A stretch of DNA of 54,019 nucleotides from a virus. Shown here one piece after another: positions 10,422 through 33,535 of this stretch. The position numbers were made by a program, and so were the translations under genes. The stretch is from positions 1-54,019 of the IMG/VR virus record IMGVR_UViG_3300025310_000213; one strand, 5' to 3'. Under the pieces are notes generated by a model, which worked only from the letters and a program-made list of their open reading frames with translations, did not search any database and was not told where the DNA came from. Every line of letters begins with the position of its first letter. Position 1 is the stretch's first letter.

Positions 10422-11312
10422 TCACGCGTCGTAACGAGCTAACAACGAAACACCAGCCGGGCCACCCCGAGTCGCCTTACCAGCGTTGTTCGCGAACGTC
10501 GCACCGAGTGGGTAATATTCGTGGCTGTTACCGTAGACGGTCACCGTCACCGGAACACCAGCGGCAAGAGATGCGCTGAAATAGCCGAATAGATTCAATC
10601 CAGCCGGCTTGAAGATTCCCGCGGCGTGGAACTGCGGGAACAGCGTGATGTCGAATCCGTCCACACCAGTCCCGACGAGCGGAGCAAGAATTCCCAGATT
10701 GCCCTCTACACCGAGACCGCCGCTTGATGGTGACCAGAATTCCTGTTCGTAGTTCGGTGCGTTCGGATCGTGGAAGAACGAAAGCAACACACCGCCGTTG
10801 CTGGATACAAGGTTGCCATTGGCATCGACCTCTCGTTCGATCGAGAACCCGATCGCACGCGTGTCAGCCTGGCCATTGACGAACAAGGCCACCAGCGCAC
10901 GGTTCGTATCACCAGTCATCAAACAGTTGAAGCTACTCGTCGAGGTTGAACTCACACAGGTGCGGTGTCGTGTTGACGTTGGACCTGTAAGAGATCCGGA
11001 ACCATTGCTGCCGGTTGCGATCTGCACCCACATGGTGGGCTGCGCAATCGACACGTTACCGGTGCCCCATTCCAGTTTCATGAAGACTGGATTCGTGGAT
11101 TGCAGCGCATCCGCCATGCGCCAGATCTCGTAACCCGCGACCGTGTTCACGGTGCCCGGACGAGTGACGGTAGACCAATCGACTTGACCCGTGTCCCCGG
11201 TCTGCACCCACCCCATCGCGATGAGCGCGTTCTTCACCGCGAGACCGGTAGCCCGGAAATCGGCATCGTTGTCGTGATGAGCTTTCAGCGTGATGACGGT
11301 TCGATAAGCCAT
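10422..11312 (-). CDS. Tail protein, paralogue B
   Basis: The 296-residue product is about one third identical to its upstream neighbour along its whole length: MAYR start, GYEIWR near 60, FMKLEWG, MTGDTNRA, ERE-DANG and a closing ARYDA. The sequence is Gly/Ser/Asn rich with aromatic beta strands, typical of tail fibre or decoration proteins. The pair arose by tandem duplication. The end is 8 bases before the 51-residue gene. Confidence 0.7.
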   Translation of the reverse strand: MAYRTVITLKAHHDNDADFRATGLAVKNALIAMGWVQTGDTGQVDWSTVTRPGTVNTVAGYEIWRMADALQSTNPVFMKLEWGTGNVSIAQPTMWVQIATGSNGSGSLTGPTSTRHRTCVSSTSTSSFNCLMTGDTNRALVALFVNGQADTRAIGFSIEREVDANGNLVSSNGGVLLSFFHDPNAPNYEQEFWSPSSGGLGVEGNLGILAPLVGTGVDGFDITLFPQFHAAGIFKPAGLNLFGYFSASLAAGVPVTVTVYGNSHEYYPLGATFANNAGKATRGGPAGVSLLARYDA

Positions 11313-11318
11313 GTGTCC

Positions 11319-12221
11319 TCAGTTCTCATAGCGTGCCATCACGGTTTGACCTGTCGTGCCTGGGCTTCCTCGCTGGCAATTGCCATTCGAGAAGAAGCTG
11401 CCAAGACAGAAATACGTGCGCGCCTGACCGTAGACGGTGAACTGCACCGTGGTGTAGGCGGGGATGGCCGCGTGGAAATACACGAAGTGATTCAGACCGA
11501 ACGGCTTGAACGAGTTGTGCGCGTGATACTGCGGGAACATCGACACATCTGAGCCAGCCGACCCCGATCCAATACGCGGAGTGAGCACACCCATGTCCTG
11601 TTCGACACCAGTCCCGCCGGCCGTTCGGTTGAAGTATTCCTGTCGAGCATTCCCGCTCATACCGCCGCCAGCGGAGCTCACCGTGACGTAGGCTCCTGTC
11701 CCAACACGACTGCCGTTAGCATCAAGCTCTCGCTCGACGCTGACCAGCATCGCGCGTTGCGTGTTGCCGCTTGCCGCGTTGTCTTTGTAGTGAAGATACA
11801 GACCCATTCGGTCCGTATCTCCAGTGAAGAGGCAATCATGTGGAGTCGTGCTGACGGCATTGCCCATCCCAGCCTGAACACGAGTCGAGGTCACGCCAAC
11901 GAACGAACCGGACCCGTTCATCGCGACGCCGAGTTGAATCCACAGCGACGGTGCTGTTGCTGAATTGGAGACTCCGTATTCAAGCTTGATGAAGATGGGA
12001 TTGGCGGCCTGCAACGAGTCAGCGAAGCGCCAAATCTCATATCCACCGACCGTGTTTACGACCCCAGGCTTTGTGACGGTCGTCCAGTTCACTTGGCCGG
12101 TGTCGGCGGTCTGCACGAGTCCCATCGCGGCAAGTTGCGCACTGATGGCGGACCCCCACGCGCGGAATTCCGTGTCGTCGTTGACACGCGGAACCAACTG
12201 GATGATGTTTCGATATGCCAT
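11319..12221 (-). CDS. Tail protein, paralogue A
   Basis: The 300-residue paralogue of the next gene shares MAYRNII, GDTGQV-like turns, GYEIWRFAD, FIKLEYG, FTGDTDR, VERELDANG, FPQYHA and ARYEN. The C-terminal FKPFGLNHFVYFHAAI block matches FKPAGLNLFGYFSASL in the partner. Divergence is greatest in the middle (about 95-200), where a receptor-contacting loop could lie. It follows the discoidin-like minor tail gene without a gap. Tail adsorption is a reasonable but unproven role. Confidence 0.7.
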   Translation of the reverse strand: MAYRNIIQLVPRVNDDTEFRAWGSAISAQLAAMGLVQTADTGQVNWTTVTKPGVVNTVGGYEIWRFADSLQAANPIFIKLEYGVSNSATAPSLWIQLGVAMNGSGSFVGVTSTRVQAGMGNAVSTTPHDCLFTGDTDRMGLYLHYKDNAASGNTQRAMLVSVERELDANGSRVGTGAYVTVSSAGGGMSGNARQEYFNRTAGGTGVEQDMGVLTPRIGSGSAGSDVSMFPQYHAHNSFKPFGLNHFVYFHAAIPAYTTVQFTVYGQARTYFCLGSFFSNGNCQRGSPGTTGQTVMARYEN

Positions 12222-13019: not shown

Positions 13020-15638
13020 TTACCTCGTGGGGATACCAAGCGCGACCTGGAGCCGCGTGCGACTGCCACTCTTGTTGCCTTCGAGCCAGTCGAGGAACAG
13101 CGGACCAATCTCCGAATAGACCATCTGCCTGACGGTGTCGACCGTCGCCAGCGGTGTGGTGAGGTTGAAATTGATCGTCGCGGCTCCGCCAGTGCGGCCG
13201 GCGAACCCAACTCGCTCCATCGCCGTGGCCAGAGCAGAGACGATCGTGTTGGGCTGGCCGACGATCTCGGGACTGCGCTCGGCGATCACGCGCATGACCG
13301 GCTTGGCATAGACGCCGCCGCCGGCCGCGCCATAGATCTGCGCAGCGCGATCCCAATCGCCAGGATTGTTCTGCATGAACTGCTGCAGTTCCTCCCACTT
13401 CGGCCGTCGTGCGTCGATGTATGCGAGGACTCGTTCCCGCGCGACAGCTTGACGATCTTCCCGATTGGCTTCCGACGTGTCGCCGGTCCCACCCGCGTTG
13501 GCTTGTTCGGCCGCTCGGGCAATATCTGCTGCGGTGCGAATGCCGTCCGGCGCTCCCTGGATGTCGTAGCGCACCGGAACGACGATTTCGTTGCCGAACT
13601 CGTCGCGAATGATCTGCATCTCCCGGCCGACGGTGCGGATCGAATCTTTGACTCGATCAAATCCATTGACCGCCGACGACGTGAGGTCTTTCTGAGCCTG
13701 GCTAGCGCGGTCCATCTTGGCGCGGATCTCATCGATCACTTGCTGAACAGCCTCACCACCTTCCTTCTCCGCTCGCCACAATCGATCAGCGTCGGCCAGG
13801 GCCTCCTCGGCGCTGACGCCGACCGCCACGTAGGCGTCGCGGATCGCGATCACCGTCGCGGCGCCGACTTCGTTGCCTTTCCACGCTCCCTTGATGGCTT
13901 CCTGCACCTCCGCCATCTGCTGGGGATTGAGTCCGTCCAGCAGCCCCTGCCGGAAGTTTTTCGCAACCTCACGCCCCTCAAGCTCCTGCTCGGACGGCCC
14001 GCCGAACAATCCCTTGATCCATCCACCGAGCTTCTTCAGGCCCTTGACGGCCAAGTCCGTCAAGGCGCCGATTCCCTGTTGAATGAGAGGGCCAAGCGGA
14101 CCGGCAGGGCCGAGGAAGAACCCGAGTCCCTGCTGCAGCAGGCTCCCGAACATTCCGCCGCCACCACCCTGACCAAAGAGGCCACCGATCATCCCTTGGA
14201 GCTTGCCGGTGACCTTGCCCATAAAGCCGTCGAGCGAACTGCTCAACGTGCCGAGCGCTCCGCCCTCACCGAAGAGACCGCCCATCCATCCCGGCATCTG
14301 CGACTGCAGGCCAGTGAACATGTTTGAGAAGAGGCCGGACACTTGCTGAGTGGAGTTGAAGGTCGGACCGACCATCACGGTATCGAGCTTGCCGAACTCA
14401 ACCTCGATCCCTTTAATCATGTCGGGCACGAACGAATGCCCGACGACCGCGTCATACATGTTCTTGAAGAACCCGGTGACGGCACCGACCTTCTCGCCGA
14501 TCCACTTCACGACGGCCGCGAACTTGTCGACGAGCCACTCCTTCACGGCGCCATAGACGTTCTTGACGATCGGGCCGATGGTGTCCCACTTCTGCCAGAC
14601 CGCGAGGCCAGCAAGAATTCCAGCGACGACCAATCCTGCCGGCATGGTGAACAGCGCAGCGAGTCCCTTCAACGCGATCGGCAGCGTTGACGAGATGAGA
14701 GGCACGATCGTGCCGGTTAGGAACGTCGACAGCCCCGCGAACGCACCGCTCAGCCCCGACGCGCCGATCATGGGCAGCAGTGTCGTGAATGCTTTCTTCA
14801 GCGGTCCGACCGCTCCACTCACGAGACTGACCGCGCCAGAGGCCGCCGTGATCACCGATGCCCACTGGCCGATCTGCGGCGATGTGGCGATCCATGAGTT
14901 GAGACCGTCCACGAAATTCGCGACGCTCGCTTTTGACGCGGCGATCTTGTCGCCGAAGTCGACCTGGGCCTTGCCATTCGCCTCGACGATCGTCTTGAGC
15001 CGTTCCTTCGTGGCGATGGCTAGGGCCTCAACCTTTTCCTGTTCCGACAGATCCTTCGCGGCTTTCCCGACCTTATCCGCGTAAGCCTGGATCGCTGCCG
15101 TGTTGTCGATGACGCCAACGAGCATTTCTGCGCCGCGAGTCCGGCCGGTTGCCATCGATTGCGCGAGCGTATTGAATGCCGTCGTGGCGTCCATTCCGGT
15201 GCGATCGGCCAGGATGCGCGCGGAGTCCGCAAGCAACGCGAAGTCCGCCTCACTCGCTTTGAGGCCGGCAGTGAGGGCCTGGTTGGCAAGTTGCAGGAGT
15301 TGAGCGTCGGAGACTGTGCCGGCAAACGACGACCGCAGCGTGTTGAGCGTTGCTACGGCATCGTTGCCGATCGCCACGTTCAACTGCGTGAAGGAGTCGC
15401 GCAGGTCGAGCACGTCGGCACCACGAGCGCCCATCGCTCCGATTCCAGCAGCAACACCTGCGACAGCACCTGCGACAACGGTGGCAGCCGTCGCCATTTC
15501 AGAGAACGAGACCTTCGATTTCTGTGTCGCCTGAACGGTCTGCTGCTCAACCTGCTGCGTGAAGGCGGAGATCTGGGCCGACGCCTCGTTGAGTAGCGCC
15601 CTGGCCTTGATGATCAGTTCAATATTGTTATCGGCCAT
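13020..15638 (-). CDS. Tail tape measure protein
   Basis: The 872-residue product sets tail length and is threaded through the tube during assembly. The N-terminal 120 residues are a heptad-rich coil (LIIKARALLNEASAQISAF) followed by a hydrophobic Ala/Gly segment (VVAGAVAGVAAGIGAMG). Further hydrophobic stretches lie at about 290-380. A Gly-rich segment (about 450-520) contains GGLFGQGGGGGMFGSLL. The C-terminal third is charged and helical. It is the largest tail gene and directly follows the chaperone frames, the standard order in siphoviruses. It overlaps the chaperone frame's end by 11 bases. Confidence 0.9.
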   Translation of the reverse strand: MADNNIELIIKARALLNEASAQISAFTQQVEQQTVQATQKSKVSFSEMATAATVVAGAVAGVAAGIGAMGARGADVLDLRDSFTQLNVAIGNDAVATLNTLRSSFAGTVSDAQLLQLANQALTAGLKASEADFALLADSARILADRTGMDATTAFNTLAQSMATGRTRGAEMLVGVIDNTAAIQAYADKVGKAAKDLSEQEKVEALAIATKERLKTIVEANGKAQVDFGDKIAASKASVANFVDGLNSWIATSPQIGQWASVITAASGAVSLVSGAVGPLKKAFTTLLPMIGASGLSGAFAGLSTFLTGTIVPLISSTLPIALKGLAALFTMPAGLVVAGILAGLAVWQKWDTIGPIVKNVYGAVKEWLVDKFAAVVKWIGEKVGAVTGFFKNMYDAVVGHSFVPDMIKGIEVEFGKLDTVMVGPTFNSTQQVSGLFSNMFTGLQSQMPGWMGGLFGEGGALGTLSSSLDGFMGKVTGKLQGMIGGLFGQGGGGGMFGSLLQQGLGFFLGPAGPLGPLIQQGIGALTDLAVKGLKKLGGWIKGLFGGPSEQELEGREVAKNFRQGLLDGLNPQQMAEVQEAIKGAWKGNEVGAATVIAIRDAYVAVGVSAEEALADADRLWRAEKEGGEAVQQVIDEIRAKMDRASQAQKDLTSSAVNGFDRVKDSIRTVGREMQIIRDEFGNEIVVPVRYDIQGAPDGIRTAADIARAAEQANAGGTGDTSEANREDRQAVARERVLAYIDARRPKWEELQQFMQNNPGDWDRAAQIYGAAGGGVYAKPVMRVIAERSPEIVGQPNTIVSALATAMERVGFAGRTGGAATINFNLTTPLATVDTVRQMVYSEIGPLFLDWLEGNKSGSRTRLQVALGIPTR

Positions 15639-16466
15639 TGCCCTTCTTCATCTCCTGCTGCTTCTTCACCGCTTCACGCCGACGCCGCTTTTCCATGTCC
15701 TCCACGAGTTGCTGATGAAGGCCGGCCACATATTCGAGGCCGTCCATCAACCACGCGTCTTGATCGCCGACACCTCCGGCAGCCGGCAGCGCCACACGCC
15801 GCCATACGGCCGCGCCTTGTGGTGTGAATTCGATGTCGTAGCAGTGGACGAACCACCGCATGACGTCCTCGACGTCCCGGTCCTTTAACGACAGAACCGG
15901 GCAGACCTTCGTCTCTACGCGCTCGTCACGCCAGACGGGGTCTGGGTTGCCGTCTGGTCGACAGCCGCGATCGGCGCAGAGTCCTCGCTGTCTGCATGCA
16001 CCGCAGTCGGCTCCGGTGTCGGCCCAGGAAGTTCCGGGTGTTGCCCTTCGGAGGTAGTCGCTGAACCGGACAGCGACCGCAACTTTTTTCGCACCTCCTC
16101 GCCGAAGCGGTTGTGCGACCAGATCTGGTTCATCACGTCGATCTTCACGTCGAGCTGTCCCGCGGCCAGCTCGTAGAATGCCTCACCGGTCGTCACCGGT
16201 ATGCCTTCGTCATCTATCTCGCCTTCAGGCAGGCGCACGTAATCGGTGAACGACTGCTTCAGCCACGCGAGCATGTCGTTCTTCCGCTTTTCGATGTCCT
16301 CGGCAGGCGCATCAAACCCACCAGGCATGGGCCGTGCGTAGGTGAAGTATTCGCCTTCGAATGCGAGAAATTCGTCGAGCGTCTGTCGTTTGACTTCGAT
16401 GTTCACCGGCGCGCCTTCAAAGACAATGACCGCCGGCAGCCATCGTTTGACCGATACCTTGGCCAT
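15628..16466 (-). CDS. Tail assembly chaperone, frameshift fusion (gpGT-like)
   Basis: Reading the first frame to the slippery heptamer (16083-16089) and slipping back one base gives an open frame to 15628. The fusion has about 279 residues: 128 shared, then about 151 unique. The unique part starts VAVRFSDYLRRATPGTSWAD and carries a cysteine cluster (DCGACRQRGLCADRGC) and then a helical region with DVEDVMRWFVHC and a basic tail. The extension is open through the whole overlap, far upstream of the ATG at 15861, which is why I read it as a fusion and not a separate gene. In lambda and relatives the longer form binds the tape measure protein during tail assembly. Confidence 0.8.
15915..16466 (-). 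CDS. Tail assembly chaperone, short form (gpG-like)
   Basis: The ATG at 16466 gives 183 residues, beginning MAKVSVKRWLPAVIVFEGAP. The core (LDEFLAFEGEYFTYARP, DIEKRKNDMLAWLKQSF) is followed by a low-complexity Pro/Ser/Thr-rich end (GPTPEPTAVHADSEDSAP), which is what a frame selected only as a stop region tends to look like. This zero-frame product is expected in large excess over the fusion. It lies between the tail tube and tape measure genes. Confidence 0.75.
   Translation of the reverse strand: MAKVSVKRWLPAVIVFEGAPVNIEVKRQTLDEFLAFEGEYFTYARPMPGGFDAPAEDIEKRKNDMLAWLKQSFTDYVRLPEGEIDDEGIPVTTGEAFYELAAGQLDVKIDVMNQIWSHNRFGEEVRKKLRSLSGSATTSEGQHPELPGPTPEPTAVHADSEDSAPIAAVDQTATQTPSGVTSA
16083..16098 (-). 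promoter_or_regulatory. Programmed -1 frameshift site (A AAA AAG with upstream SD)
   Basis: The heptamer AAAAAAG (16083-16089) is in the correct phase (A AAA AAG) of the short chaperone frame, at codons 127-128. Four bases upstream lies GGAGG (16094-16098), an internal Shine-Dalgarno, the type of stimulator used at dnaX. This is the most slippery -1 heptamer known in bacteria. Confidence 0.8.
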
Positions 16467-16609: not shown

Positions 16610-17749
16610 TTACGCGATGGCGAGCATCAGCTCGTCGTTCTCGCCGTCAGCCGTTTCGAGAGCCGTGCCCTCGAACGACCAGGTCACTTCGTCCTCGCCA
16701 TCGCTCGTTTCCGCGGGCTTGAACTCCACCCGCGGTGCAAAGATCGCGATGATCTTTCCCTCCGTGCGGCCGTTCTGCCGAAGGACCGAGAGGTTCGCAC
16801 CAGACTCGGTCTGGTCGTAAATCGCAGTTTCGTCCTCTGCAAACGCATCGAGCTTGATCTTGATCTCTCGCCGATCCTTACGGAACAGTTCGGTCGGCCG
16901 ATCGGTGCCGGCCTCGCTGTGTCGAACGGCTAGGGCGTTGTTGATCTCGGCCGAGAACATCGTGTGCTTGTAGGCATTTGCGCCCACACGAAGCTCACCC
17001 ACCATGCCGGTCGGCGGGTTGCCGCCCACCTCGGTCGCCGAACCCGGCGTCGCCTGGCCTGGGGTGATCTGTTCCTTCGCCGGTCCGCTGGCCGAGAACC
17101 GCGCCTCCTCGGTTCCGTCGAATTCGAGGCTGAGTGAATCGATGCCGGCGCCGAGCACCTCCCGTTTGAACGAGGTGTATGCGTGCAAGACATCAAGCGA
17201 CTTGGCGAGGTCAGTCGTCAGCTTGTAGGTGATGCACCCCTTGATTGCCGCGCCATCGGCAGGCGGGCCGGGCAGCGCTGGCGCCCACGTGAGCACGTTG
17301 CCGGCGACCGACGTCAGGAATCGCACGTGAAGCGTGCCGCCTTGCGAGATCAGCACCGCGTCGCGCTTGGCGAGAGTCCCGGCCGAGGCGACCGTCGCGC
17401 CCGTGGTCGTGCCAGTGCCGGGGTTGACGGTGGTCGACAGGGTCACGTTGGTCACCGATCCGAACCCGCACTCCATAACCGGATCGCACTCCGGCAGCGT
17501 GTTCAGCGTCCCCGACGGCCGGATCAGACCTTCGATCGTCTTGAGGGAGGCGTCGCTGCGTCGGTCGAACCGATTCACCGGGCCAGGGGAGTCCTTGCGT
17601 TCCGACGACGTCACACGCGCATACGGGTCCCACCCGAAGTTCACATTGATGTGCCGCATGAAGTTGGTCGGGCCGAGCGCCTCCGCGACTCCGTAGGTGG
17701 CCTCCTTTTTGAGGAATACCTTTCCCCTGCGTCCGATCTGAAGTGACAT
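16610..17749 (-). CDS. Major tail tube protein
   Basis: The 379-residue product begins MSLQIGRRGKVFLKKEATYG, a common opening of siphovirus tube proteins, and ends with beta strands (EVTWSFEGTALETADGENDE). It contains an inserted Thr/Gly-rich stretch (NPGTGTTTGATVASAGTLAK, about 108-127), perhaps a surface domain. The position just before the frameshifted chaperones supports the call. Confidence 0.8.
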   Translation of the reverse strand: MSLQIGRRGKVFLKKEATYGVAEALGPTNFMRHINVNFGWDPYARVTSSERKDSPGPVNRFDRRSDASLKTIEGLIRPSGTLNTLPECDPVMECGFGSVTNVTLSTTVNPGTGTTTGATVASAGTLAKRDAVLISQGGTLHVRFLTSVAGNVLTWAPALPGPPADGAAIKGCITYKLTTDLAKSLDVLHAYTSFKREVLGAGIDSLSLEFDGTEEARFSASGPAKEQITPGQATPGSATEVGGNPPTGMVGELRVGANAYKHTMFSAEINNALAVRHSEAGTDRPTELFRKDRREIKIKLDAFAEDETAIYDQTESGANLSVLRQNGRTEGKIIAIFAPRVEFKPAETSDGEDEVTWSFEGTALETADGENDELMLAIA

Positions 17750-22408: not shown

Positions 22409-22870
22409 TTACGCGGCAACAGGCGTGCGGAGCTTCTGAATCTCGCTAGACAGTTCAGGCGTCAATCGAAACCACTCGCCGCGAACCCGATAGGAGGCAA
22501 ACTGCTCGTGATACTTACGTTCCAATGCCGGGCCGCCTTCGACAGTTGCCAACACGGTCAGGGGTTTGCCAGCTTCGAATGACAATTGCTGGAGTCGTTT
22601 CTCGACGTTCAACGAGAACCCGATCTTTACAAGCTCGCCATCCGAAATGAAATACACCCGTCGATGGATTGGTTTCCGATGCCACTTGCGAACGAGCGGC
22701 TGGTGTTCTTTCCTAAATGGCGAGACACCATCATGACAATCCGCGACAATCTCGTTGATGGCATCACGGACGAAATCCGACATCGTCTGATGGTTGCGGT
22801 CCGCGAGCTTCTTTAGAAGCTCTTTATCTGTGTCAGTGATACGAAGGATGATGACGGCAGTCCGCTTCAT
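22409..22870 (-). CDS. RHH plus GIY-YIG (T5orf172/MUG113-like) protein
   Basis: The 153-residue product has two parts. Residues 5-50 are a ribbon-helix-helix-like domain (VIILRITDTDKELLKKLA, TMSDFVRDAINEIV). Residues 70-150 are a minimal GIY-YIG fold of the MUG113/T5orf172 type: VYFISDGELVKIGFSLNVEK (VYF as the first Tyr motif and KIG as the second), a catalytic-like Arg in EKRLQQL, and a conserved Glu-Lys-His (LERKYHEQF), then GEWFRL. Such nucleases cut DNA and are often in homing elements. It sits between the minor head gene and the protease, where head operons have no such gene, so an insertion is likely. The DNA-binding domain would provide site choice. Confidence 0.75.
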   Translation of the reverse strand: MKRTAVIILRITDTDKELLKKLADRNHQTMSDFVRDAINEIVADCHDGVSPFRKEHQPLVRKWHRKPIHRRVYFISDGELVKIGFSLNVEKRLQQLSFEAGKPLTVLATVEGGPALERKYHEQFASYRVRGEWFRLTPELSSEIQKLRTPVAA

Positions 22871-32755: not shown

Positions 32756-33535
32756 CTAGAACGGGACGTTCTCGGCACCGTCGGTTTCATCTTCGGCCGT
32801 TTCAGCAGCCGACGTATCGATGGTCTTGTCGCGGAGATCGAGCGCCGTCTGCTTCAGTTCACCGTAGAGCACCTGGTTGGTGATGATGCCGATGGGCAGT
32901 CGCGGGATGACCGGGATGTAGAATTCCTGGCCGGCCGCGTTCTTCGTTGCGATGCTCGACAGCGTGAACACCTTGGCGAAGTCGGCGATCCCCGACATGG
33001 CGCGGAGCGAGCTGTTAAAGCCTCGCATGGTCTTCAGGAACGTGCTCTTCGCACTGAACCAGACGATCTCCTTCGTGTCCGGCAGGTAGAAGAGGTAGTT
33101 CATGAACTTCGTGACTTCGGGCTTCTCGCCCTTCGGTCCGAAGGTCGTGCGGAGCGGCAGGCCTTCCTCGTCGCGCACGACGCCATCGGATCCCACGATG
33201 CCGCGGCACACGATGCCGCCGCCCTGGTCGATCGGCTTGAACACGATGTAATTGACCCAATATTTCAACATCGTGAAGCGCAACGGGCCGGTGCCGTAGA
33301 TGTAGCCACTGGCGTCGTTGAAGAAGTCGCCCTCGGCGAGCCCTTCGATGTAGTTTGGGTCGTTGCGCTTGCGCTGCGGCGTCATCGACTGGCACAGCTT
33401 CAACTGTGGCAGCCGAATCTCCGACTGATCGAATTGCGTGTTGAGCGCCAGGGCCTCCTGGTCCTGCTTCATCCAGTCGGGGAGCGCGAGCGCTCCGCCG
33501 GGCGTGACGGTGGTGAGTGCGGTTTCTTCCTTCAT
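32756..33535 (-). CDS. ssDNA-binding-like protein with SSB-type tail
   Basis: The 259-residue product has an OB-like body (NPLRFTML-like GPLRFTMLKYWVNYIVFK, KTFMRGFN-like TMRGFNSSLRAMS) and a long acidic C-terminus ending ENVPF, like the DDDIPF tip by which SSB recruits partners. It is upstream of the primase-helicase in the same operon. The tail and position support a replication SSB; a recombination-protein role is also possible. Confidence 0.6.
   Translation of the reverse strand: MKEETALTTVTPGGALALPDWMKQDQEALALNTQFDQSEIRLPQLKLCQSMTPQRKRNDPNYIEGLAEGDFFNDASGYIYGTGPLRFTMLKYWVNYIVFKPIDQGGGIVCRGIVGSDGVVRDEEGLPLRTTFGPKGEKPEVTKFMNYLFYLPDTKEIVWFSAKSTFLKTMRGFNSSLRAMSGIADFAKVFTLSSIATKNAAGQEFYIPVIPRLPIGIITNQVLYGELKQTALDLRDKTIDTSAAETAEDETDGAENVPF

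Follow-up and report, generated by a model that had tools for sequence, protein, structure and literature searches.

The slippery heptamer of phage lambda is GGGAAAG, and in chaperones of the gpG/gpGT type the frameshift takes place at low efficiency, so that the ratio of G to GT is near 30:1. In lambda the tape measure is coated by the abundant form, whereas recruitment of the tail tube protein falls to the rare one (PMC5009743). This -1 frameshift is conserved among tail chaperones of dsDNA phages (Xu, Hendrix and Duda 2004, as cited in PMC5009743 and PMC3711429), and 6-7% frameshifting has been measured for one HK97-like chaperone cluster (PMC3711429). The frameshift site of E. coli dnaX, with the heptamer A AAA AAG also found here, uses a Shine-Dalgarno (SD)-like stimulator and a hairpin (PMC3711429). 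Within tail assembly, the T half of frameshifted chaperones is still poorly understood, and as it frequently lacks a start codon it tends to escape gene callers.

The stretch of DNA analysed here (the window) is a virus record of 54,019 bases with 61.6% GC; the features of the chaperone locus are listed in Table 1. The chaperone gene sits between the genes for a tail-terminator-like protein and the putative major tail protein on one side and the tape measure gene on the other. It lies immediately upstream of the latter, and a tape measure gene adjoins in most homologous loci. The putative major tail protein is 81-84% identical in two close relatives and was without a match in family searches. 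As in lambda, the chaperone is followed by the tape measure, an in-phase heptamer is located late in the 0-frame gene, and the -1 extension ends at the start of the tape measure gene, which here overlaps it. The window differs from lambda in its slip sequence (A AAA AAG versus GGGAAAG), in the conserved candidate Cys knuckle that separates its G-like part from its T-like part, and in a protein without detectable match to any named family. We consider it probable (about 0.75) that a siphovirus-like phage makes the two forms of its tail chaperone from this locus, and that the slip-made extension combines a Cys knuckle with a T-like part.

Table 1. Features of the chaperone locus (window positions)
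Feature	Position	Strand	Remarks
Putative major tail protein	16610..17749	-	assigned by position only
GAGGAGG		-	just 5' of the chaperone ATG
0-frame tail assembly chaperone (gpG-like)	15915..16466	-	183 aa; ATG at 16466, stop ends at 15915
GGAGG	16094..16098	-	SD-like, 4 nt upstream of the slip
Slippery heptamer A AAA AAG	16083..16089	-	in phase, within CGA AAA AAG
Possible stimulatory hairpin	16057..16077	-	GUCGCUG, 7-nt loop, CAGCGAC; 5 nt after the slip
-1 frame extension (T-like)	15628..16083	-	151 codons plus TAA (15630-15628)
Frameshift fusion product (predicted)			279 aa; junction peptide EEVRKKVAVAVR
Cys cluster DCGACRQRGLCADRGC	15961..16008	-	C27, C30, C36 and C41 of the extension; codons at 16005, 15996, 15978 and 15963
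Fifth conserved Cys, C61	15901..15903	-	in CPV motif; codon at 15903
C-terminal T-like region with LPAAGGVGDQDAWLM	15631..15876	-	roughly D70 to end
Tape measure protein	13020..15638	-	872 aa; phrog_1272 tape measure, E 5e-12

The original prediction had described an in-phase A AAA AAG heptamer, a -1 frame open from the slip to 15628 and a cysteine sequence within that frame, and all of these are present as described. In the structural region, no other in-phase A6 slip occurs in any of the 17 main ORFs. The length of the open -1 frame is by itself not rare, as 4 of 171 such stretches in the phage reach 151 codons, and the case therefore rests on conservation and not on length.

To follow this conservation, codons were compared between the window and two relatives (L003/L175 and L004/L007; 81-87% identical), both of which retain the slip, a stop-free -1 frame and all of the cysteines. 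In these close relatives the substitutions shift, right after the slip, from the third position of frame 0 to the third position of frame -1. Counted over the overlap, codon differences in frame 0 are 1-4 synonymous versus 14-20 nonsynonymous, and those in frame -1 are 11-13 synonymous versus 6-10 nonsynonymous. Judged by these codon differences, the -1 extension is under protein-level selection. Across the family the extension is also the more conserved portion, with 34-42% identity versus 14-27% for the 0-frame part. A slip-blind search, in which a Cys-motif pattern was used and the slip ignored, recovered 38 viral contigs, of which an HMM showed 19 (14 distinct) to be homologous. Homologues lacking a slippery site would have counted against the prediction; each of the 19 homologous loci (14 distinct) carries an in-phase heptamer. 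The family heptamers vary (A6G, A7, A6C and GGGAAAA/G/C), all of them in the -1 phase. An early pattern combining the slip with four cysteines was too loose; among the matches listed most were due to chance, and L066 was found there. The position of the gene, the conserved slip and the frame-switching constraint support a programmed -1 frameshift that yields two forms of the tail chaperone, a device already known from lambda gpG/gpGT.

Possible stimulators of the slip are confined to close relatives. The GGAGG that had been noted four bases upstream is indeed there, but it is not conserved beyond the closest relatives; L163 has GAGGAG instead. The SD-like element of dnaX lies farther from its slip than the GGAGG of the window does. 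A role of GGAGG in frameshifting is doubtful because it is restricted to close relatives, has a shorter spacing to its slip than the element of dnaX does and probably represents Glu-Glu codons. The downstream hairpin is identical in the three closest relatives, with a folding z-score of about -1.6. A family-wide stimulatory hairpin was also tested for and rejected, as the family members have no consistent hairpin in common.

The cysteines follow the pattern CxxC-x5-C-x4-C...CP in the window's clade, where all five are invariant at 34-42% extension identity, although the conservation of C27, C30, C36 and C41 is in part due to hit selection, since the first patterns required them. C61 was in no search pattern and is still retained by all full-length members. 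To remove the selection bias, a Cys-blind search was performed with the C-terminal motif LPxxGGxGDQ, which contains no cysteine. Its strong new matches (L208, L226 and L240) all possess the cysteines, except that L226 has another residue in place of C36 and L240 lacks it; together with L231 they retain CxxC...C...CP, as do prophages in three Pseudomonadota genomes. The four-Cys core also characterizes a second clade, to which the cultured Alteromonas phage P24, Rhodobacter phage RcZahn and Microcystis phage Mae-JY22 belong. A third, sister group (L184, L205/L244, L206, L207, L216 and L221) has the slip and a T-like end without the Cys cluster, NP replacing CP. In a tree of 30 extensions, which is indicative only, being short and built with the Cys columns included, a supported branch (99/98) sets the Cys-less group apart, and only a few changes are required to account for the five-Cys and four-Cys forms. 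The cluster thus stands as conserved in the window's clade, is reduced to a four-Cys core in the second and is absent only from the third. On this distribution the cysteines are a genuine trait of the family. As the sister clade has the slip and the T-like end but no cysteines, the general mechanism can do without the knuckle.

The cultured phages of the second clade share with the window an in-phase slip (in their case A AAA AAC) next to the tape measure gene, and their extension contains CxxC...C...CP and ends in a similar way at the C-terminus. They differ from it in having the four-Cys core only, without the C-x5-C-x4-C form, and in P24 and Mae-JY22 the extension is shorter. The RcZahn gene 27/28 frameshift is missing from the annotation of that phage, in which gene 28 (L251:2261-2683), annotated as a tail assembly chaperone from a start of its own, represents the -1 extension of gene 27. 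The annotations of Mae-JY22 and P24 have no gene in the frame that encodes the Cys-bearing part of the extension. Azospirillum phage Cd, the closest annotated phage by capsid (49%), similarly has an unannotated in-phase slip (GGGAAAC) with a -1 extension at gp41 (L009:14205-14696), but this extension contains no Cys cluster and has no clear sequence similarity to that of the window.

Searches with the extension and its relatives gave no significant match in Pfam, PHROGs, NCBIfam or PDB sequences, and none was found in Pfam or PHROGs for the 0-frame chaperone of the window; one relative had a single weak PHROG chaperone match (E 0.028). DNA and single-protein searches of 50,697 phage records produced nothing useful for the window, and a further search of 385 Alphaproteobacteria gave one weak match, without the cysteines. 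In searches of the open-access literature, no title or abstract described a Cys or zinc cluster in a tail chaperone. The mechanism is a known one, and its variant with a conserved Cys domain is apparently unreported.

In the mechanism that we propose, most ribosomes would produce the 183-aa 0-frame chaperone, which would coat the tape measure protein, and a minority would slip by -1 on A AAA AAG to yield the 279-aa fusion. The extension of the fusion would comprise two parts, the Cys knuckle (CxxC-x5-C-x4-C...CPV) followed by the T-like C-terminal region. The latter would recruit the major tail protein, and the knuckle would give a fixed shape to the stretch that links the chaperone part to the T part. 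Four conserved cysteines including a CxxC pair are present, as in a Cys4 knuckle, and they fit a metal knuckle that has been inserted after the chaperone and ahead of the part that recruits the tail tube. Most likely such a knuckle would bind one metal ion, with zinc as the first candidate and an iron-sulfur cluster as the second, and the most likely ligands are the conserved core C27, C30, C41 and C61. C36 seems to be auxiliary, given its loss from both L226 and the four-Cys clade.

No significant match of the site to a known metal-site family or fold was found in Pfam, NCBIfam or PDB. AlphaFold models of both parts (three close rows) were poor, with pLDDT of 48 and 61 and no significant fold match, and a PDB fold search with the N-terminal model found nothing. 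A possible likeness of the CxxC-x5-C spacing to the iron-sulfur motifs of radical-SAM SPASM, Cas4/AddB or EndoIII proteins found no support in Pfam scans. A broader proposal, that two large phage clades carry in the minor (GT-like) form a metal-binding domain made only by frameshifting, so that the T-form is metal-dependent and possibly holds an Fe-S cluster, is in our view a long shot. If true, tail-tube recruitment would respond to metal or redox state.

An alternative that keeps the frameshifted chaperone as it is, but in which the cysteines bind no metal and act as a redox or disulfide switch or are merely packed free thiols, is unlikely, though it has more to recommend it than the other rivals considered below. 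It would sit well with the variation of C36 and with the sister clade, whose extension does without the site. The CxxC and two further cysteines, one of them in CP, are however kept across very different spacings, which is how tetrathiolate metal sites usually look, and a disulfide is difficult to reconcile with the reducing cytoplasm in which tail chaperones act.

Two further explanations concern the change of frame itself, and both are very improbable. Transcriptional slippage on the A run, in place of ribosomal frameshifting, could be imagined in several relatives having runs of 8-9 A, a length that permits polymerase slippage (PMC3711429); the window has just 6 A followed by G, and other relatives use GGGAAAA/G/C, which is unlikely to slip in that way. 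Slightly less probable still is that the extension is an independent gene read from its own start, as the annotation of RcZahn gene 28 would have it. The first ATG, GTG or TTG in the -1 frame of the window is at codon 75, past the Cys cluster, so that the cluster would be made only via the slip; a start codon ahead of the cluster is absent in most relatives too, and with an independent gene the conserved in-phase slip would serve nothing. Programmed ribosomal frameshifting is the preferred reading. The T half described here can be aligned as a family that has a Cys knuckle, invariant residues that can be named, and cultured phages among its members, and this makes a metal requirement and the structure of the T-form directly testable.

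Several other features of the phage were observed. The tape measure protein has 872 aa in the window versus 1094 aa in a close relative (L175:687-3968), the two being alike mainly in the C-terminal half, with chaperones over 80% identical; such a length difference with nearly the same chaperone predicts different tail lengths. Downstream of the tail module, the adjacent genes at 10422-11312 and 11319-12221 have products that are clearly related to each other (MAYR..., DTGQV.W.TVT.PG.VNTV.GYEIWR), which makes them a tandem duplication; the protein is probably a tail or fibre component. A small gene amid the capsid-region genes (22409-22870) has by eye a GIY-YIG/T5orf172-type look (VYFISDGELVKIGFSLNVEKRLQQL); just a 59-aa stretch of it matches in the relative L006, and it may be a mobile insert. 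The phage also carries a tRNA-Leu (CAA) gene at 33385-33479.
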